Positions 2,500-51,382 of a DNA stretch of 64,000 nt are shown in pieces; the first letter of the stretch is position 1, and each line of letters opens with the position of its first letter. The notes under the pieces are model-generated. The model was given only the letters and a program-made list of their open reading frames with translations, was not told the origin of the DNA and did not search any database. Position numbers and translations under genes: made by a program. Location: the NCBI GenBank assembly GCA_028282805.1, contig JANQHD010000054.1, forward strand, positions 62,001 through 126,000, read 5' to 3'. This DNA comes from Phycisphaeraceae bacterium. Its GTDB lineage: Bacteria; Planctomycetota; Phycisphaerae; Phycisphaerales; Zrk34.

Positions 2500-2562
2500 G
2501 AATGTGGATTGCGGGATGTGGAGTGATCACTCCAAAATCCGCACTCCGAACTCCGAACTCGA
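2500..2562. repeat. Heptad fold-back repeat A (infB/DUF503 spacer)
   Basis: Nine consecutive 7-base units fill the whole spacer: GAATGTG, GATTGCG, GGATGTG, GAGTGAT, then CACTCCA, AAATCCG, CACTCCG, AACTCCG, AACTCGA. The second half is roughly the reverse complement of the first. The switch point is a perfect 14-base palindrome, GGAGTGATCACTCC, at 2520-2533. The tract runs from just after the infB stop to one base before the ATG of the next gene. No T-run follows it, so it is not a standard terminator. Confidence 0.8.
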
Positions 2563-2563
2563 G

Positions 2564-2854
2564 ATGATCGTCGGCATCCTCCAGGTCGAACTGCACATCG
2601 GCGACGCGGCGTCGTTGAAAGACAAGCGCCGGGTCGTCGCGAGCCTGAAGGATCGGCTCCACCGCGAGCACCAGGTCGCCGTCGCCGAGGTCGACAAGCA
2701 GGACGCCCACCGGTCCGCCGTGCTCGGCGTCGCCGCGGTCTCGAACTCCGCCCGGCACGTCCAGGGCCTGCTGGACCGCATCGTCGAGCAGCTGAGGGCC
2801 AACCCGAAGATCGTGCTGACCGACCACGCGATCGAAGTGTTGAAAGGGCATTGA
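2564..2854 (+). CDS. DUF503 (YlxP-like) protein
   Basis: A 96-residue protein opening MIVGILQVELHIGDAASLKD and containing the DUF503 core KDKRRVVASLKDRL. Family members are small ferredoxin-like proteins encoded next to infB and rbfA in many bacteria (YlxP in Bacillus). They have been linked loosely to ribosome maturation, but no biochemical role is firmly established. The ATG at 2564 matches the family N-terminus; the frame is open further upstream, but that part would overlap infB. The spacers on both sides are heptad repeats, so no ordinary Shine-Dalgarno sequence precedes this gene or rbfA. Confidence 0.9.
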   Translation: MIVGILQVELHIGDAASLKDKRRVVASLKDRLHREHQVAVAEVDKQDAHRSAVLGVAAVSNSARHVQGLLDRIVEQLRANPKIVLTDHAIEVLKGH

Positions 2855-2859
2855 ACAAT

Positions 2860-2928
2860 CTGCGATGTCCGATCTTCGATCTGCGATCGAAAAGATCGGA
2901 CATCGCACATTGAAGATCGAAGATAGAA
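2860..2928. repeat. Heptad fold-back repeat B (DUF503/rbfA spacer)
   Basis: The spacer reads as 7-base units: CTGCGAT, GTCCGAT, CTTCGAT, CTGCGAT, CGAAAAG, ATCGGAC, ATCGCAC, ATTGAAG, ATCGAAG. Four NNNCGAT units are followed by units of the reverse-complement type ATCGNNN. Bases 2856-2876 and 2892-2912 form a 21-bp stem with one mismatch and a 15-base loop. The last bases abut the rbfA ATG, so the ribosome-binding region lies within the repeat. There is no U-tract. Confidence 0.85.
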
Positions 2929-3339
2929 ATGTCGCATCGCACCGAACAGCTCGAATCCACGCTCCAGCGGGCGATCGGACAGGTCCTCGCCGCGGGGCTG
3001 GCCGACCCGCGCTGCAAGGGCATGATCTCGGTGACGGGCGTGTCGGTGGCCGCCGACCGGCGCAACGCGACGGTGAAGGTCTCGATCCTGCCGGAGTCCG
3101 CGGCGCCGGCGACCATGGCGGCGCTGCGGCACGCCACCGGCTACGTGCAGCACGAGGCGGGTGAGCGCATCCGCGTCCGCCGCATGCCCGAGCTGCGGTT
3201 CGAGCTCGACGAATCTTTGAAGAAACAAGCCGACGTGCTCGGCGCCATCCACGACGCGATGGCCGCCACCGGCACGCCGGAACCCGACGACGGCGAAGGG
3301 GAACAGCCAACCGGTTCCAGTGGGGATACGAACCCGTGA
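2929..3339 (+). CDS. rbfA: Ribosome-binding factor A
   Basis: RbfA binds the 30S subunit and assists 16S rRNA 5'-end maturation and cold adaptation. The 136-residue product has the single KH-like domain, with DPRCKGMISVTGVSVAADRR in the first half and an RMPELRFELDES motif near the end, as in the family. The C-terminal tail (about 25 residues) is acidic and probably disordered. Its TGA overlaps the GTG start of the next gene (GTGA, 3336-3339), which suggests translational coupling. Confidence 0.96.
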   Translation: MSHRTEQLESTLQRAIGQVLAAGLADPRCKGMISVTGVSVAADRRNATVKVSILPESAAPATMAALRHATGYVQHEAGERIRVRRMPELRFELDESLKKQADVLGAIHDAMAATGTPEPDDGEGEQPTGSSGDTNP

Positions 3340-4067
3340 AAAACGCGACCGAACACGCCAAGAAACTGCGCTCTTTGCTCCGCCGGACCAAGGCCGCGCC
3401 CGAGCCCACCGCCCAGCCGCAGGAACTGCTGGACCTGATGGTCTATGCCTTCCTGTTGTGGGAGACCACGACCCGCCAGGCCGACGCGGCCTACAACCGC
3501 CTCATGCGCCAGGTCGTCGACCTCAACGACCTGCGCGTGACCGACCCCGACGACCTGATGCTGATGGTCGGCGAACGTTACTCGATGCTCGAGCAACGCA
3601 TCGACCACCTCCGCCGGGCGCTGCACGCGGTCTACCTCTCCGAGCACGCGATGTCGCTCGAACGCATCAACGCCCTGGGCAAACGCGAGTCGCGCGCCTT
3701 CATCGAAGGCCTCGACGGCATGGTGCCCTTCGTCTCCGCCTACCTGCTGTTGCACGGCCTGGGCGCGCACGCGATGCCCGTCGACGAAACGCTGCACGCC
3801 AAGCTCGTCCGCGAGGGCGCCGTGCACGAGGACGCGACCATCGAAGACGCGCAGGGCTTCCTCGAGCACCAGGTCAAGGCCGCCGACGGGCCGAAGGTCG
3901 CCCTGCAGCTGCGCACCATCGGCGAGACCGGCGGCTCGCGCCCCGCCAAGAAGGCCGCCCCGGCGAAGAAGACGACCAAAAAGACCACAAAGAAGAAGAC
4001 GGCGAAGAAGACCGCCAAGAAAACCACGAAGAAGAAGACATCGAAGAAGACCACCAAACGCCGCTGA
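3336..4067 (+). CDS. HhH-GPD (endonuclease III)-like protein with histone-H1-like lysine tail
   Basis: A 243-residue protein with a GTG start coupled to the rbfA stop. Residues about 30-200 resemble the DNA-glycosylase fold of endonuclease III. The segment GLDGMVPFVSAYLLLHGLG fits its helix-hairpin-helix, and MPVDETLHAKLVREGAV fits the following VDTHV region with the conserved Asp. The catalytic Lys expected inside the hairpin is absent and no iron-sulfur cysteine cluster is seen. Residues about 205-243 form a tail of KKT/KKA repeats, like histone H1 or bacterial HU-like tails. A non-catalytic DNA-binding role is inferred from remote similarity only. Confidence 0.6.
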   Translation: MKNATEHAKKLRSLLRRTKAAPEPTAQPQELLDLMVYAFLLWETTTRQADAAYNRLMRQVVDLNDLRVTDPDDLMLMVGERYSMLEQRIDHLRRALHAVYLSEHAMSLERINALGKRESRAFIEGLDGMVPFVSAYLLLHGLGAHAMPVDETLHAKLVREGAVHEDATIEDAQGFLEHQVKAADGPKVALQLRTIGETGGSRPAKKAAPAKKTTKKTTKKKTAKKTAKKTTKKKTSKKTTKRR

Positions 4068-4100
4068 GCACGCGTTCGCGGCGCACCGAAGACGACCACC

Positions 4101-4988
4101 ATGATCAAGCGCAGCAAGGACGAAATCCTCCGTATCGGCTTGCCCAAAGGCTCGCTACAGAGCAGCACCGTGGACCTGTTTGCCAAGGCCGGCTACCACG
4201 TCCGCGTGCCCGACCGCAGCTACTTCCCCGAGATCGACGACCCGACGCTGTCGTGCGTCATGTTCCGCGCCCAAGAGATGAGCCGCTACGTCGAGGACGG
4301 CGTGGTCGACTTGGGCATCACCGGGTACGACTGGGTCATCGAGAACGGCTCGGACGTGCACGAGGTGTGCGAGCTGGTCTACTCGAAGGCGACCAGCCGG
4401 CCGGCGCGTTGGATTTTGGCCGTGCCGAATGAGTCGAACGTCACCAAGCCCGAAGAGCTGGCGGGCGGCATCGTCGCCTCGGAGCTGGTCAACACCACCC
4501 GCAAGTATTTCGACGACAAAGGTATCGACGTGAAGGTCGAGTTCAGCTGGGGCGCGACCGAGGTCAAGGCCCGCCTGCTCGACGCGATCGTCGACGTGAC
4601 CGAGACCGGCTCGTCGCTCAAGGCCAACAACCTGCGCGTGATCGACGAGATTTTGTCGTCGACGACGCGGCTGATCGCCAACAACGAAGCGTGGAAAGAC
4701 CCCCAGAAGCGGGATAAGATCGAATCGTTGGCGTTGCTGCTGCGTGGCGCGATCAACGCGCGACGGAAGGTCGGCCTGAAGATGAACGTGCCGCGCGACA
4801 AGATGGACGCCATCGTCGGCTTGCTGCCGTCGGAGAAGAGCCCGACCATCAATAACCTCGCGGACGAACAATGGGTGGCCGTGGAAGTCATCGTCGAAGA
4901 GCAGACCGAGCGCGAACTCGTGCCGCAGCTGCACCGCGCGGGGGCGACCGGCATCATCAGTTACCCGCTGAACAAGGTGATCCCCTGA
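4101..4988 (+). CDS. hisG: ATP phosphoribosyltransferase, long form
   Basis: Catalyses the first step of histidine synthesis, joining ATP and PRPP. The 295-residue length and a C-terminal ACT-like regulatory domain (about residues 215-295, ending GIISYPLNKVIP) mark the long, hexameric, histidine-inhibited HisG-L form, which does not need HisZ. The PRPP-binding area is visible as DVTETGSSLKANNL. The N-terminal catalytic part has RIGLPKGSLQ and DLGITGYDWV. No other his gene is nearby. The TGA stop overlaps the probable start of the following lipoprotein gene. Confidence 0.96.
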   Translation: MIKRSKDEILRIGLPKGSLQSSTVDLFAKAGYHVRVPDRSYFPEIDDPTLSCVMFRAQEMSRYVEDGVVDLGITGYDWVIENGSDVHEVCELVYSKATSRPARWILAVPNESNVTKPEELAGGIVASELVNTTRKYFDDKGIDVKVEFSWGATEVKARLLDAIVDVTETGSSLKANNLRVIDEILSSTTRLIANNEAWKDPQKRDKIESLALLLRGAINARRKVGLKMNVPRDKMDAIVGLLPSEKSPTINNLADEQWVAVEVIVEEQTERELVPQLHRAGATGIISYPLNKVIP

Positions 4989-19519: not shown

Positions 19520-20482
19520 TCAGAAGACCTGAGAGCCGCCGCCCTCGCCTGAGCTGTCGCCGCCTTCGATGCCCGCCGCGATGTTCGCGGCGTCGGAGAA
19601 CCAGCCGACGATCGTGTCGGCGTTTTCGGTGTAGGTGGTCGACATGCCCTGGGTGCGGATGTTGTAGGGCACCATGTCGCGCAGCTTGGTGAACGAGACG
19701 GAGCCGTCGAGGAAGCTGGTGTTGCCGCCCACGGCGTCGGTGGCGGTCATCGCGTCTTTATCGCCGGCGTAGATCAGGCCGCTGGGGCCGTGCGCGTACG
19801 ACGAGTGCGTCGGCGAGGGGAACCTGGTGCCGCGTTCGTTGAGGTCGGCGCTGACGGCGGTGGTCGCGCCGTCCGACATGGTGTGCGCCACGCGCCAGGC
19901 GCTCATGCCGTGGTCGCCGCTGAGCGGTTTCCAGAAGAAGTTCGACCCGTTCGATTCGGGGTCCCAGATCTTCTTGCCGCTGGGGTTCGCCCACGCGGCG
20001 CGGCCGCCCAGCAGGTAGTAGCCCAACCGGACGCGCGGGATATTCGTGAACTCGTCGGGGCGGACATCGACCAGTTCCTTCGAGCTGGTGTCGCTGAGCA
20101 TGAAGTTGGTCACGTCGGACCGCCCCTTGCGGTTGGGGCAGTTGAACTGCTCGAGTTCCACGCCGGCTTCCACGAGGGTCTGGTACATGTAGCTGTTGAT
20201 CCAAGAGGCGTGGTCGTTGCCGACGTTCTTCTTGAACGCGTCGCGGAGCTTGGTCGGGTTGCGGTCGATCTGGGCCTGGGACGGGTGGAACTTGCCGTCG
20301 CGGTCGTCGGCGATCATGAACTGGGTCTGCGCCAGCCCACGGTTGTTGCTGCCGCAGACGCTGCGCGACGCGAGCTCCTTGGCCTTGGAGATCGCCGGCA
20401 GGAGGATGCTCAGCAGCAGGGCGATGATCGCGATGACGACGAGTAGTTCGACCAGTGTGAACGCGCGGGTTTGGCGACGCAT
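19520..20482 (-). CDS. Prepilin-type N-terminal (DUF1559-like) protein
   Basis: 320 residues beginning with a type IV prepilin signal: basic leader MRRQTRA, then [20 protein letters not shown], with cleavage expected after Ala7. The rest is a large secreted domain. Near the C-terminus [16 protein letters not shown] matches the H-X9-DG motif of the planctomycete pseudopilin-like family, although the His position is Asp. Such proteins are very numerous in planctomycetes and are presumed to be exported by a type II-like system; their function is unknown. It has its own terminator and stands alone. Confidence 0.9.
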
Positions 20483-46105: not shown

Positions 46106-47446
46106 TCACCAGCCGTCTTTGGCGCGTTCGGCCTTGTACTTCTCGACGAGCTTCAGCACCACGTCGCGCCGGTCTTGCGCGAGGTTCGTTTGTTCGTTCG
46201 GGTCGGCGGCGAGGTCGTACAGCTGCCACGGTTTGTGGGCGCCGTTGCGCACGATCTTCCAGTCGCCGTCGCGCAGCGCTTCCCAGCGGCGTGGGCCCCA
46301 CACCCAGTAAATCGTGCGCGGCGCGGGCTTGTGTTCGGCGTCGACCAACATCGGCCAGACGTTTTGCCCGTCCCACGCGGGGTCTTGCTCGGGTTTGTAA
46401 CCGACCACGCCGGCGAGCGTGGGCATCCAGTCGACGGCGTGCATCGGCGTCGTCAGCTTGTGCGCGGGAAGCTTGCCGGGGTAGTTGATCAGCGCCGGCA
46501 CGCGGATGCCGCCTTCGTAGGCGGTGGTCTTGCCGCCGCGCAGCGGGGCGTTCGAGCTGAATCCCTTAGCCAGCTTCGTGTCGGGCGGCGGGTAGTTGCC
46601 GCCGGGGTATGCGCCGGCGATGCCGCCGTTGTCCGACGTGAACACGATGATCGTGCGCTTGCGTTGGCCGGTCTTTTCCAGGGCCTCGACCATCCGCCCG
46701 ACCGCCGCGTCCATGTGCGACACCGCCGCGGCGAACAGCCGGCGGTCCGGGTCGGCGATGTGCTTGTTGAGGTGGTGCCACTTCGTGTCGCCCTCGATCA
46801 GCGGCGTGTGCACGGCATGAAACGGCACGTAAAAAAACCACGGCTCGCCCCGGTGTTCGTTGATCCACCTGACCGCCTCGTTGGCCGTCAGGTCGGTCAC
46901 GTGCCCCACCTCGGTGATGAACTCGTGGTTGCGGTGCCAGGTCTGTGTGTACTCGGGCCGGTTCAGGCGGTAGCGGTGGTCGTACATGCCGACCGCGCCG
47001 GCGAGCGAGCCGTGCGAGTAGTCGAAGCCGTGGTGGTTCGGGCCCCACTTCGGCAGCGAACCCATGTGCCATTTGCCCGACATGCCGGTCGCGTAGCCCA
47101 TCGACTTGAACATGTGCGCCATGGTCAGCGTGCCGATGGCGTACGACCGCTCGTTGCTCGCCTGCGTGCAGTGCTTGCCGAACCGGCTGGGGTAACGCCC
47201 GGTCATCAACGCCACACGCGTCGGCGTGCACTGCGGCTGCACGTAGTGCGCATCGAGCTCGACGCCCGCCCTGGCCAGCGCGTCGAGGTTCGGCGTGCGC
47301 AGCTCGGGGTTGTGGTAGCCGATGTCGTTCCAGCCCTGGTCGTCGGAAACGATGAACAGCACGTTGGGCTTGCCGGCAGCGGTCCCGGCCCACACGCCAC
47401 AGCTCATCGACACCACCACGCACGCGATCACGCATATCGTTTTCAT
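46106..47446 (-). CDS. Secreted sulfatase (formylglycine type)
   Basis: 446 residues with a signal peptide (about 1-24). The motif VQPQCTPTRVALMTGRYPSR holds Cys73 in C-x-P-x-R, the site turned into formylglycine. Metal-binding motifs are NVLFIVSDDQGWND, and TSDNGG later in the chain; GKWHMG is typical too. It looks like an arylsulfatase/N-acetylgalactosamine-sulfatase, of the type planctomycetes use on sulfated polysaccharides. The maturing enzyme and other degradation genes are not nearby. A TACAAT box lies 6 bases before the start. Confidence 0.93.
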   Translation of the reverse strand: MKTICVIACVVVSMSCGVWAGTAAGKPNVLFIVSDDQGWNDIGYHNPELRTPNLDALARAGVELDAHYVQPQCTPTRVALMTGRYPSRFGKHCTQASNERSYAIGTLTMAHMFKSMGYATGMSGKWHMGSLPKWGPNHHGFDYSHGSLAGAVGMYDHRYRLNRPEYTQTWHRNHEFITEVGHVTDLTANEAVRWINEHRGEPWFFYVPFHAVHTPLIEGDTKWHHLNKHIADPDRRLFAAAVSHMDAAVGRMVEALEKTGQRKRTIIVFTSDNGGIAGAYPGGNYPPPDTKLAKGFSSNAPLRGGKTTAYEGGIRVPALINYPGKLPAHKLTTPMHAVDWMPTLAGVVGYKPEQDPAWDGQNVWPMLVDAEHKPAPRTIYWVWGPRRWEALRDGDWKIVRNGAHKPWQLYDLAADPNEQTNLAQDRRDVVLKLVEKYKAERAKDGW

Positions 47447-47452
47447 GCTCCG

Positions 47453-47458
47453 ATTGTA
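47453..47458 (-). promoter_or_regulatory. -10 box at the sulfatase start (possible leaderless transcript)
   Basis: TACAAT on the minus strand, then CGGAGC, then ATG 47446. The GGAG is too close to the ATG to act as a ribosome site. Confidence 0.5.
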
Positions 47459-47701
47459 TGGCCCCGCGCCGATCGCACAAAGATTTGCACGCGCGTCCGA
47501 CACCAAGCCGGACCGGAGCGCAGCGCAGGTCCGGATCTCACCCCCGTTCGGTTTGTAACGATCGTGCGGCCTGTGACGGTCGTTCCGCCCGCCCGCCGCG
47601 TTCCCGGCGGCCCCGGCGCAGTTCGCTTGGATCGCCCGGCCGTTCGATTCGATGCAGATTCAGTGCGTTTGTGCGCCGTGATCGCCACGGAGGAGGGCCC
47701 C

Positions 47702-48187
47702 ATGCCTCGGGGACGGAATCGATGCAACCCGCCCGCGCATCGCTGCGCGTTCAGCCTGCTCGAGCTGGTGATTATTCTGGTGACGATCGCGCTGCTGTCG
47801 GCGATTGCCGTGCCGCGGTACGCCGATGCGCTGGTGCGGTACCGCGTCAACCTCGCCGCCGACCGCGTGATGCGCGACCTGCAATGGGCGGCGGCGCACG
47901 CCAAGGCCACCGGGGCCGACGTGGTGTTGGCGTTCGACCTCGCGGACAACGCGTACACCTCCGCCGAGCTCGATGACCCCGATCAGCCCGGCTCCGGTTA
48001 CGCCGTGGCGCTCGGCGAACCGCCTTACGAAGCCGCGATCACCGCCGCCGACTTCGCCGGCAGCGCCCAGGTCACGTTCAATGGCTACGGCACGCCGTCG
48101 GCGTCGGGTTTCATCGCCGTGACGGTCGGCGATCGCACACAAAAGGTCACGCTCGACGCGGCGACCGGCGAGGTGAGCATCCCATGA
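47702..48187 (+). CDS. GspH-like minor pseudopilin (first of four)
   Basis: 161 residues. A basic leader and a prepilin signal with cleavage after Ala16 (CAFSLLELVIILVTIALL), Glu at mature position 5. A short GspH/FimT-type domain follows (ADRVMRDLQWAAAHAKATGA), ending in two beta strands (VTVGDRTQKVTLDAATGEV). The ribosome site is GGAGGAGGG. The stop overlaps the next start as ATGA (48184-48187). As in type II secretion, it would help start or cap a pseudopilus. Confidence 0.88.
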   Translation: MPRGRNRCNPPAHRCAFSLLELVIILVTIALLSAIAVPRYADALVRYRVNLAADRVMRDLQWAAAHAKATGADVVLAFDLADNAYTSAELDDPDQPGSGYAVALGEPPYEAAITAADFAGSAQVTFNGYGTPSASGFIAVTVGDRTQKVTLDAATGEVSIP

Positions 48188-49839
48188 CGTTGACCCGAAA
48201 CAATCCGCCCGCCCGCCGCGCGCTCGGCTACACGCTGGTCGAGGCGACCGTCGCCATCGCGGTGATGAGCGTGCTGCTGGTGGCGATCGGTTCCGTGCTC
48301 GCCATGGCGATGCAAGCCGTGCCGTCGGCCGACGACCCGCTGCTGACCCGCCTCGAAACCACGCAGGCGCTCCAGCAGATCGCCGACGAGTTCCAGTTCG
48401 CCACACACATCGTCGCGCAGACCCCTAACGCCATCACGTTCTCCGTGCCCGATCGCACGGGCGACGGAGCGCCCGACACCATCGCCTACTCGTGGTCCGG
48501 CAACCCCGGCAGCCCCCTGACGCGCATGATCAACAACAGCGCGGCCACGGTGGTCGTGGCGGACGTGCACTCCCTCGGCCTGAACCTGATCAAAACCAAC
48601 GTCGTCGAGACGTACCCCGGGCTGCTGGTCCCGTCGGCCGAACAACAGCTCAGCACCCACCTCGGCAACAGCAATGCGAACGACCAAACGGTCACCCAAG
48701 ACAACTGGCACGGCCAGTCGTTCACCCCCGTGTTCCCTGCGGAAGCGGTCGCCTGGCGGGTCAGCCGTGTGCGCTTCGTGGCCAGGCGGGTCGACATCCC
48801 AACCAGTAACCTGTTCGTGCAATTGTGGCCCGCCGACGCCGCCGGTCGCCCGATCGGCGGTGCCGTGGTGCAGGAAACCGTCCACGAGTCCAGCCTTCCC
48901 GCCTCGATGCAGTGGCACGAGGTGACCATCGGTTCGCCCCTGCGGTTCAACCCGGGTGATTCGGCTTGCCTGGTCTTGGCCGAGAACGACCTGGCCGGTT
49001 ACGCGGCCTCTGTTCGGACCGATGCGGGTGCGGGCCCGGGTTACGTATACACCGGCAACGCTGGCAATTCATGGAGCTTCGATCACGGATCGGCTCTCCA
49101 GCACGAGTTTGTGGGCGTCTACTTCACCCCCGGGCCGGACCAGACGTTGGCCCGATCCTATGTCACCCGCGCCCGCTTGGCACTTACGACCGGCGACCTG
49201 GCCGAAGCCCACGAAGTGACCGTCCGCCCGCTCAACCAACCCGAACTGCTCAGCCGATACTGGCGCCTCGACTTCGACGGCGACCCCACCGCGGTCGATG
49301 CCAACGGCGACGGGCAAGGCGACTGGACCACCGCCAACGGCCAGCCGTTCGACACCGGCGACCTGAGCGATGGCGTGTGGTGCCCCACGAGCACCGACCC
49401 CGCGATCGATAGCCACCCCGACTGCGATTTTGACGAGCCGACGACCGTGGACGTGCGCTTCCGCGCGACGGGCACGGGCTCGGCCGCGACCGTGTGGGTC
49501 AACGCCGACCACGGCGGCGGCAAGTGCGCCACGATCGTCGCCACGCTCACGAAGCAGCCCGGCTCGCAAACGCTGGCCGTCTCCAACATGACCGCGCTGC
49601 ACCACCCCGCGTTGCTCGCCAGCGTCCCCGACCTGTCCCCCGGCATGGTCGAGCTGCGCCTGCTGATCGACCCCGACGCCAACACCATCAACGTCCGCGT
49701 CAACGGCGCCGACGCCGGCACCTACGGCTACGCACGCAGCCTGGCCTACGCCAGCCAGCCCTACATCCGCCTGTTCAGCTCCAACGGCAAGGTCGTGTTC
49801 GACGAGCTGAAGGTGCGCGTGGGAGGCACGGGCGGATGA
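48184..49839 (+). CDS. Minor pseudopilin with long extracellular beta-sandwich domains (second of four)
   Basis: 551 residues, far longer than GspJ (about 200). The prepilin signal is RRALGYTLVEATVAIAVMSV, with cleavage after Gly15. Residues about 150-330 resemble a beta-sandwich of surface proteins (HGQSFTPVFPAEAVAWRVSR, LFVQLWPADAAGRPIG, MQWHEVTIGSPLRF). Residues about 360-550 look like a second, lectin-like sandwich, with a calcium-loop-like DANGDGQGD and the ending GKVVFDELKVRVG. Start and stop overlap both neighbours by four bases. It probably displays a binding head on the pseudopilus. Confidence 0.8.
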   Translation: MTLTRNNPPARRALGYTLVEATVAIAVMSVLLVAIGSVLAMAMQAVPSADDPLLTRLETTQALQQIADEFQFATHIVAQTPNAITFSVPDRTGDGAPDTIAYSWSGNPGSPLTRMINNSAATVVVADVHSLGLNLIKTNVVETYPGLLVPSAEQQLSTHLGNSNANDQTVTQDNWHGQSFTPVFPAEAVAWRVSRVRFVARRVDIPTSNLFVQLWPADAAGRPIGGAVVQETVHESSLPASMQWHEVTIGSPLRFNPGDSACLVLAENDLAGYAASVRTDAGAGPGYVYTGNAGNSWSFDHGSALQHEFVGVYFTPGPDQTLARSYVTRARLALTTGDLAEAHEVTVRPLNQPELLSRYWRLDFDGDPTAVDANGDGQGDWTTANGQPFDTGDLSDGVWCPTSTDPAIDSHPDCDFDEPTTVDVRFRATGTGSAATVWVNADHGGGKCATIVATLTKQPGSQTLAVSNMTALHHPALLASVPDLSPGMVELRLLIDPDANTINVRVNGADAGTYGYARSLAYASQPYIRLFSSNGKVVFDELKVRVGGTGG

Positions 49840-50372
49840 CCCACACACCGACCCATCGTCGCCGCCGGGGCTTCACGCTCGTCGAGGCGGTCATCTGCAT
49901 CGGCATCGTCGGCGTCATGGTCGCGCCCACGCTGTACGTGGTCGGCGCTTCACGCACGACGCGCCTGCGCAGCGAGAACCACGCCCGCGCCGCCAGCCTC
50001 GCCGATGCGCTGCTCGCCGAGGTCATGGCCAAGCCGTACGCCGACCCTGATTCGCCCCACGCGCCGCTCGGGCCCAACGGCGGCGAGGGCTCCGGCGGCG
50101 GCCGGCTGAACTTCGACGACGTCGACGACTTCGACGGCTGGAACGCCTCGCCACCGATCCGCCCCAACGGCGCACCGATCGGCGGCGTCGGCGGCCTGAC
50201 GCGCTGCGTATCGGTGGGGTACGTTTCACCCGATGACATGGACACGTACGTGCCGACCGACACCGGCCTCAAGCGGATCACCGTCGTCGTCAAACGCGGC
50301 GATGCGGTGCTGGCCGAGCTCAACGCCCTGCGCACCAGCGCCCGGCCCGACCCGCAGAGCGAACTGGAGTAA
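49836..50372 (+). CDS. GspI-like minor pseudopilin (third of four)
   Basis: 178 residues. Leader RRRRG with the prepilin segment FTLVEAVICIGIVGVMVAPT, cleaved after Gly12. Then a helix (RAASLADALLAEVMAKPYAD) as in GspI/PilV, an acidic Gly-rich loop, and a short beta part with VKRITV-like strand (TGLKRITVVVKRGDAVLAEL). It starts inside the stop of the previous gene (ATGA at 49836) and ends 3 bases before the next start. Confidence 0.85.
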   Translation: MTHTPTHRRRRGFTLVEAVICIGIVGVMVAPTLYVVGASRTTRLRSENHARAASLADALLAEVMAKPYADPDSPHAPLGPNGGEGSGGGRLNFDDVDDFDGWNASPPIRPNGAPIGGVGGLTRCVSVGYVSPDDMDTYVPTDTGLKRITVVVKRGDAVLAELNALRTSARPDPQSELE

Positions 50373-50375
50373 GCG

Positions 50376-51326
50376 ATGAACCGACCACGCCACCAAACGA
50401 GGCCGAACCGGCGCCGCGGCGGGGCGTACATCCTCGTGCTCGGGGTGGCGATGCTGCTGGCCGTGCTCGGCATGGCGGGCATGATGTCGGCGCGCGTCAC
50501 CCACCGGCAGGCCACCGTCGGCTCCAGCGCCACCGATGCGATGCGCCTGGCCGAGTCGGCCGTCGAGCTGGCGCTGCACGAAATGGCCGGCGACCCGGGC
50601 TGGCGGGACAACCACGCCTCCGGCGAGTGGGCCGCGCCCAAGCCGATCGGCGGCGGCAGCGTGTGGTACGCGCTGGTCGACGTGGGCGACGGCGATCTGG
50701 CCAATGACCCGGACGACCCGGTCCGCATCTACGGCCGGGCCGAGCGCGGTGGCAGCGCCCGCATCATCCGCGCCGATGTCGATGTCAGCACCGTCGAGGG
50801 GGTGGTCGGCCTGACCAACGGCGGCTTCGAGAGCGGCACCGCGCCGTGGTTCACCTACCAGGACTCCGGCGTCGTGATGCCCTGGACCACCGCCCCTCAC
50901 GGCGGCAGCCAGAACGTGATCGTGACCGGCCGCGCCTCGCCCCAGACGTCGCTGGCACAGGACGTGACCGACCAGTTGCAGAACGGCCAGTCGTACAACC
51001 TGCGGGCCTACGTGCAGACGGTTCATTTCTGGGGGGCGACGGTCGTGGGCCTGGCCATCGAATCCGACGACGGGCCCGACCAGCAGTTCACCGTGACCGG
51101 CCCGGCCGGCGTGCTGCCGATTTGGGGCGAGGTGTCGGGCACGGTGACGCCCACCTGGGATGGCGAATTGTTGCAAGCGTATTTCTTCGTCCAGTACACC
51201 GAGAGCAACGTGGACTTCATGGTCGACGACGCGTCGATGTCGGCCGAGGCGGCCAGCACGTTCGAGGTCGATCACGGGTCGTGGCGGCGCGTGCTGGTGC
51301 AAGACGCGCCCGCCCTGAGCGATTAG
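50376..51326 (+). CDS. PilX/GspK-like protein with carbohydrate-binding-like module (fourth of four)
   Basis: 316 residues. A basic leader RRRGG precedes a hydrophobic segment AYILVLGVAMLLAVLGMAGM without the Glu5 of pilins, as in GspK/PilX. The helix ATDAMRLAESAVELALHEMA is typical. Residues about 145-295 resemble a CBM4/9/22 beta-sandwich (NGGFESGTAPW near its start, GQSYNLRAYVQTV in the middle, FMVDDASM at the end). GspK-like proteins sit at the pseudopilus tip, so a sugar-binding module there would face outside. A terminator follows at 51353. Confidence 0.8.
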   Translation: MNRPRHQTRPNRRRGGAYILVLGVAMLLAVLGMAGMMSARVTHRQATVGSSATDAMRLAESAVELALHEMAGDPGWRDNHASGEWAAPKPIGGGSVWYALVDVGDGDLANDPDDPVRIYGRAERGGSARIIRADVDVSTVEGVVGLTNGGFESGTAPWFTYQDSGVVMPWTTAPHGGSQNVIVTGRASPQTSLAQDVTDQLQNGQSYNLRAYVQTVHFWGATVVGLAIESDDGPDQQFTVTGPAGVLPIWGEVSGTVTPTWDGELLQAYFFVQYTESNVDFMVDDASMSAEAASTFEVDHGSWRRVLVQDAPALSD

Positions 51327-51352: not shown

Positions 51353-51382
51353 AAAGCCCACCCATGGCCATGGGTGGGCTTT
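51353..51382. terminator. Bidirectional terminator between the pilin operon and xerC
   Basis: A perfect 30-base palindrome, AAAGCCCACCCATGG and its complement, with A-run before and T-run after the G+C stem. It serves the pseudopilin operon on the plus strand and the convergent recombinase gene on the minus strand. Confidence 0.75.

Follow-up and report, generated by a model that had tools for sequence, protein, structure and literature searches.

Four linked minor-pilin genes, H, J, I and K, were found in a 64,000-nucleotide stretch (the window) of the genome of a Phycisphaeraceae bacterium, with modules of predicted all-beta fold added to J and K. Our favored interpretation, held with some confidence, is that they encode the complex at the tip of a type IV pilus-like fibre in Phycisphaerae-type planctomycetes, and that these fibres carry interchangeable adhesive tips, which probably bind polysaccharide.

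Four minor-pilin genes and their added modules

The genes occupy positions 47702–51326 of the forward strand, preceded by a ribosome-binding-like GAGGAGGG (47690–47697, +). H (GspH-like, 161 aa, 47702–48187) matched PF12019 (E 1e-5) and its family profile (202 bits), and J (551 aa, 48184–49839) carries an N_methyl motif and two added modules and matched its family profile (680 bits). I (GspI-like, 178 aa, 49836–50372) matched N_methyl PF07963, its family profile (214 bits) and, weakly, GspI. The last gene, K (GspK/PilX-like, 316 aa, 50376–51326), scored 356 bits against its family profile. Both the H/J and J/I junctions are ATGA overlaps, and three bases separate I from K. The prepilin N-termini AFSLLE (H), GYTLVE (J) and GFTLVE (I), with N_methyl E values of 0.0033, 0.0022 and 1.9e-6, follow the GFxxxE-like pattern of the type 4 filament superfamily; Glu5 is missing from K, a feature of capping subunits (PMC10191384). 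ORF, overlap and profile evidence thus bears out the four linked genes as located and described in the original prediction, and chance is ruled out for the set because its order is kept in many genomes. A perfect, terminator-like inverted repeat (AAAGCCCACCC-ATGGCCAT-GGGTGGGCTTT, 51353–51382) lies between K and a convergent xerC-like gene. A separate prepilin-type protein is encoded outside the operon at 19520–20482 (−).

A divergent sulfatase gene (46106–47506, −; PF00884, E 1.5e-53) neighbors the operon and had been offered as a hint of function. With 93 sulfatase matches in the window genome, and a homologue near 3 of 55 loci at a different place each time, we attribute this proximity to chance and discarded the link.

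The second gene had been predicted to bear two beta-sandwich-like extra domains, with structure prediction proposed as a check. The AlphaFold2 model of J, built with 20 orthologues (pLDDT 87.3, pTM 0.73), is nearly all strand between residues 75 and 546 and contains two all-beta modules, D1 (residues 150–322; 48631–49149, +) and D2 (residues 355–548; 49246–49827, +). These behaved as separate units in profile searches, D2 being present or absent independently among relatives. Because orthologous J proteins at the same operon position span ~155–185 aa and have neither module, the extra residues are genuine additions; model and shorter orthologues together confirm the predicted domains. D1 is common to J and K (profile match E ~1e-49) and forms the K head in two other species (G105 and G114). 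No Pfam family was found for D1 or D2; choice-of-anchor R, considered for D1, was discarded since the weak match lies in D2 and falls below the cut-off. Foldseek matches to the whole J model comprised phage fibre, galectin, concanavalin-type and beta-glucanase-type proteins, the last three of which we assign provisionally to D2, as the output carries no residue ranges. A sugar-type fold for the J modules is suggested by structural similarity of a kind that also occurs in non-binding proteins.

The head of K (residues 146–296; 50811–51263, +) corresponds to the CBM4/9/22-like module expected on the fourth gene. Residues 146–273 match CBM_4_9 (PF02018, E 2.5e-16), and in the AlphaFold2 model (pLDDT 87.4, pTM 0.53; 20 orthologues) this C-terminal domain is a beta-sandwich, the fold of the CBM4/9/22 family, that superposes on CBM22 and CBM16 modules. 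Foldseek TM scores by target were 0.83 for 1h6y, 0.81 for 4xup and 0.81 for 1dyo (rmsd 2.2 for 1dyo); a sequence search with the K family profile also led to these structures (4xup, 2e-16; 1h6x, 1e-5). The predicted fold of the head is of the CBM22/CBM16/CBM4 type. J, with its two modules, and K, with its CBM, each join a pilin to domains foreign to pilus biology, as modular pilins do.

The binding cleft of CtCBM22-2 was compared with window K at five positions. R25 and E138, recognisable as mutated positions in 1h6x and 1h6y, correspond to Y161 and Q273; W53, Y134 and Y136, which we take to be cleft residues, correspond to Q190, Y269 and F271. Two of the five (Y134→Y269 and Y136→F271) are either identical or replaced by another aromatic, so xylan binding like that of CtCBM22-2 is unsupported, and window K probably does not bind xylan in the manner described for that module. 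Of the glycan-binding pseudopilus tip originally proposed, the sandwich modules are present; sugar binding is predicted, with two of five CBM22 cleft residues kept. The loss of most of these residues would also suit heads whose targets are proteins, DNA or the matrix of the cell itself instead of environmental polysaccharide; beta-sandwich folds serve many ligands, and modular pilins that bind DNA or protein have been described (PMC8179133). We nevertheless consider this rather unlikely, since CBM and LamG, unrelated lectin-type folds, recur in the K slot. The same recurrence makes polysaccharide the likeliest class of ligand.

The filament machine and its genomic arrangement

Searches for the four-gene order and for E/F/G-type genes elsewhere, both suggested with the original prediction, were productive. 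The four-gene order recurs in many relatives' genomes, and E/F/G-type genes adjoin it in most relatives of the same order. The operon reads E-F-PilM-PilN-PilO-X-G-H-J-I-K in 12 of the 19 first relatives' loci, and in Phycisphaerae MAGs with public names, whose loci were found by GspG-type alignment. The extension ATPase (E) and platform protein (F) typical of the superfamily are thus linked to H-J-I-K in relatives. In the window genome (G000; 3.9 Mb, 99.8% complete), contig C28 carries H-J-I-K without a motor, and GspF was not found on that contig. E-F-M-N-O-X-G lie on contig C12 (27.4–33.9 kb, locus L094), with no minor pilins after G.

The C12 genes matched T2SSE (E, 1.9e-137) and T2SSF (F, 7.6e-52), followed by the inner-membrane set of type IVa pili (T4aP), comprising PilM (PF11104, 1.5e-7), PilN (PF05137, 2.2e-7) and PilO (PF04350, 1.7e-8). 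X has a weak GspB/PilP-type resemblance (T2SSB PF16537, 2.3e-4). The ATPase contains MshEN with an MshE-type c-di-GMP motif. It is the single member of its family in G000 and the best match there to the relatives' E; orthologues in G025 and G110 are 67–74% identical, and the next paralogue in G000 44%. From complementarity and homology we infer that the C12 and C28 loci cooperate, and on sequence grounds they appear to form one machine over two loci. What had been taken for a self-contained new pseudopilus looks instead like one portion, the tip, of a larger type IV filament apparatus.

The C12 operon is convergent with an MCP-CheW-CheR-CheA-CheX-CheY-FapA cluster. Being present in G000 only, next to FapA, these chemotaxis genes were not used as evidence of pilus signalling. 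At locus L072, a second E-F pair (2510–4261 and 1059–2837) lies immediately downstream of the H-J-I-K operon.

The possibility that H-J-I-K is only part of a normal type II system, raised at the outset, is at odds with the separate PilM, PilN and PilO of the machine and with an operon that encodes no secretin. A type II secretion system (T2SS) encodes its GspD secretin together with its other genes; here no secretin was found in or beside the operon at 54 of 55 loci, and the one exception (L117, 14597–16615) lies downstream of K. G000 has two separate T2SS-like loci (C17 and C53), each combining a GspD-type secretin, E and F with pilins of its own, and a normal T2SS was discarded as the main reading. 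Of the retraction ATPase and secretin expected of a T4aP, the genome has PilT (C32) and a PilQ-like secretin (C47); genes of these types were not found in or near the relatives' operons, apart from the one secretin. Besides C12, about five type IV filament motor loci are present (C17, C32, C47 and two on C53), as well as Tad-like T2SSF pairs at C2, C32 and C52.

A related proposal is that the modules are receptors of a T2SS-like pseudopilus, taking up secreted enzymes (e.g., sulfatases or glycanases) in the periplasm instead of binding external glycans. T2SS HIJK complexes do touch effectors (PMC10191384), G, the major subunit, resembles GspG, and HIJK subunits are common to T2SS and type IV pilus systems. 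We regard this as unlikely given the two other T2SS-like loci, the separate PilM, PilN and PilO of the C12 machine, and heads that differ between species in the manner of adhesin modules.

Modules and tip cassettes among relatives

Among relatives, J is a plain pilin (e.g., L107, L111, L188–L194 and L196), carries D1 (L079, L086, L105, L106, L114, L116, L117, L121 and L203), carries D2 (L185, L186 and L187) or, in a fourth form seen besides the window J, carries both. Full-length J with D1 and D2 is encoded in ~24 of 151 genomes of the order, plus one outside the class (G298); phylum-wide, window-type J is rare (20 of 343 genomes, 11 of the 20 in this order). The K head also varies: CBM, LamG (PF13385), an unnamed module with three members (K96), D1, others or none. 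Several relatives have headless K proteins of 157–221 aa (L186, L187, L197 and L202), so a head is not required, and at L188 and L208 a CBM is located on I. Profile–profile comparison gave no support for a common origin of the five named head modules (best probability 3.8%).

These distributions bear on whether the modules act as structural spacers, or as domains at subunit interfaces, with no ligand. D1 and D2 are indeed fairly conserved (J identity to window J 25–38%) while K heads vary. Such a role is nonetheless quite improbable, as D1 and D2 are missing from otherwise intact operons, D1 moves to K, and lectin folds are needless for spacers.

On the motor ATPase tree (39 rows, 9 of 36 inner branches strongly supported), D1 and D2 each require at least 8 changes and the K head at least 14, counts that are rough because the tree is weakly resolved. 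Better-supported changes place L085 (D1+D2) beside L185 (D2; support 97) and L197 (D1+D2) beside L186/L187 (D2; support 100). Genome G110 has five H-J-I-K cassettes with differing module sets on five contigs (L200, L205, L206, L207 and L208); no motor was found beside any of them over the stretches retrieved, and the genome has a single motor of the C12 family. In G025, two CBM-headed K genes lie away from the motor, and over the stretch retrieved the motor operon was found to lack K. An orphan cassette like that of the window is thus a recurrent arrangement. Judged from gene content, modules are gained, lost and swapped across species and loci are split; by the same measure, the Phycisphaerae-type lineage exchanges heads and whole tip cassettes unusually often.

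Frames of 1300–1500 aa starting with a K-like N-terminus were also seen (G031:C1:540626, G111:C56:10451 and others). They apparently form a paralogous family, some occurring as adjacent pairs.

Proposed tip function and related systems

The reading of H-J-I-K as an adhesive tip builds on the observed gene order, homology to the machine and predicted folds. The C12 locus would supply motor, platform, PilM-PilN-PilO, the GspB/PilP-like protein and major pilin G. Processed by prepilin peptidase, H, J, I and K would prime fibre assembly and stay at the tip, so that D1, D2 and the CBM22-type head of K would form the outermost part of the fibre. Exposed at the cell surface, these modules would hold a ligand, most likely polysaccharide, on a fibre that may extend and retract. 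Tip placement is established elsewhere for H-I-J-K, in pilus and pseudopilus (PMC10191384), and for modular pilins (PMC9934059); display of the modules here would follow by analogy with HIJK complexes (PMC10191384) and Streptococcus sanguinis PilABC (PMC9934059). A bolder and decidedly tentative extension is that in Phycisphaerae one motor serves exchangeable H-J-I-K cassettes, with lectin modules redistributed over J, I and K to suit particular polysaccharides, as an adhesive or capture device behind polysaccharide feeding.

Glycan-binding heads on a pilus tip had been proposed as a new use, but have been described (PMC8179133, PMC9934059). In the S. sanguinis type IV pilus tip, PilA-PilB-PilC, a ConA-like lectin module of PilC binds glycans and PilB carries a vWA module (PMC9934059). 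As in the window set, modules are grafted onto minor pilins; their position at the tip is demonstrated there and would hold here by inference. S. sanguinis is a monoderm with three minor pilins, whereas the window derives from a diderm planctomycete with a full H-J-I-K set, two J modules and a CBM22-type K head; glycan binding is demonstrated for PilC and predicted from fold for K and J. A survey of modular pilins describes a pilin N-terminus joined to an unrelated functional domain, LamG (PF13385) included (PMC8179133). The window set follows this plan, and LamG serves as a K head in relatives, but no Pfam family covers D1 or D2, Glu5 is missing from K, and J, I and K of a single conserved operon exchange modules. 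The Myxococcus Kil/Tad pilus, one filament with four alternative tips (PMC12075869), resembles G110, with its alternative minor-pilin tip cassettes at separate loci; the Kil/Tad pilins are TadEFG-like and window-type cassettes HIJK. With MSHA, T4aP and T2SS the system shares profile-level homology of H-I-J-K, an E with MshEN, and PilM-N-O. Their standard J is short, however, while window-type operons have the order H-J-I-K and, unlike these systems, no secretin, PilT or PilY1 (PilY1 judged by inspection of the gene list). Pilins of modular build, tips that bind glycans and sets of alternative tips have thus each been described (PMC8179133, PMC9934059, PMC12075869); the modularity is less expected.

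No paper on planctomycete minor pilins was found in the literature examined, most subscription journals excepted. Planctopirus and Gemmata, planctomycetes of another class, were shown to bind dextran on pili-like fibres (PMC5394234), and in Fimbriiglobus, likewise of another class, type IV pili are cited as helping chitin adhesion (PMC11131199). Because of this difference in class and the rarity of window-type J in the phylum, we do not claim identity of the H-J-I-K system with those pili. A lineage-wide minor-pilin cassette with lectin-type heads does provide concrete candidate genes for polysaccharide binding in Phycisphaerae. H-J-I-K cassettes moreover offer a clear example from nature of HIJK tip subunits exchanging modules and of several tip cassettes per motor, which makes them useful for asking how tips choose their ligands.
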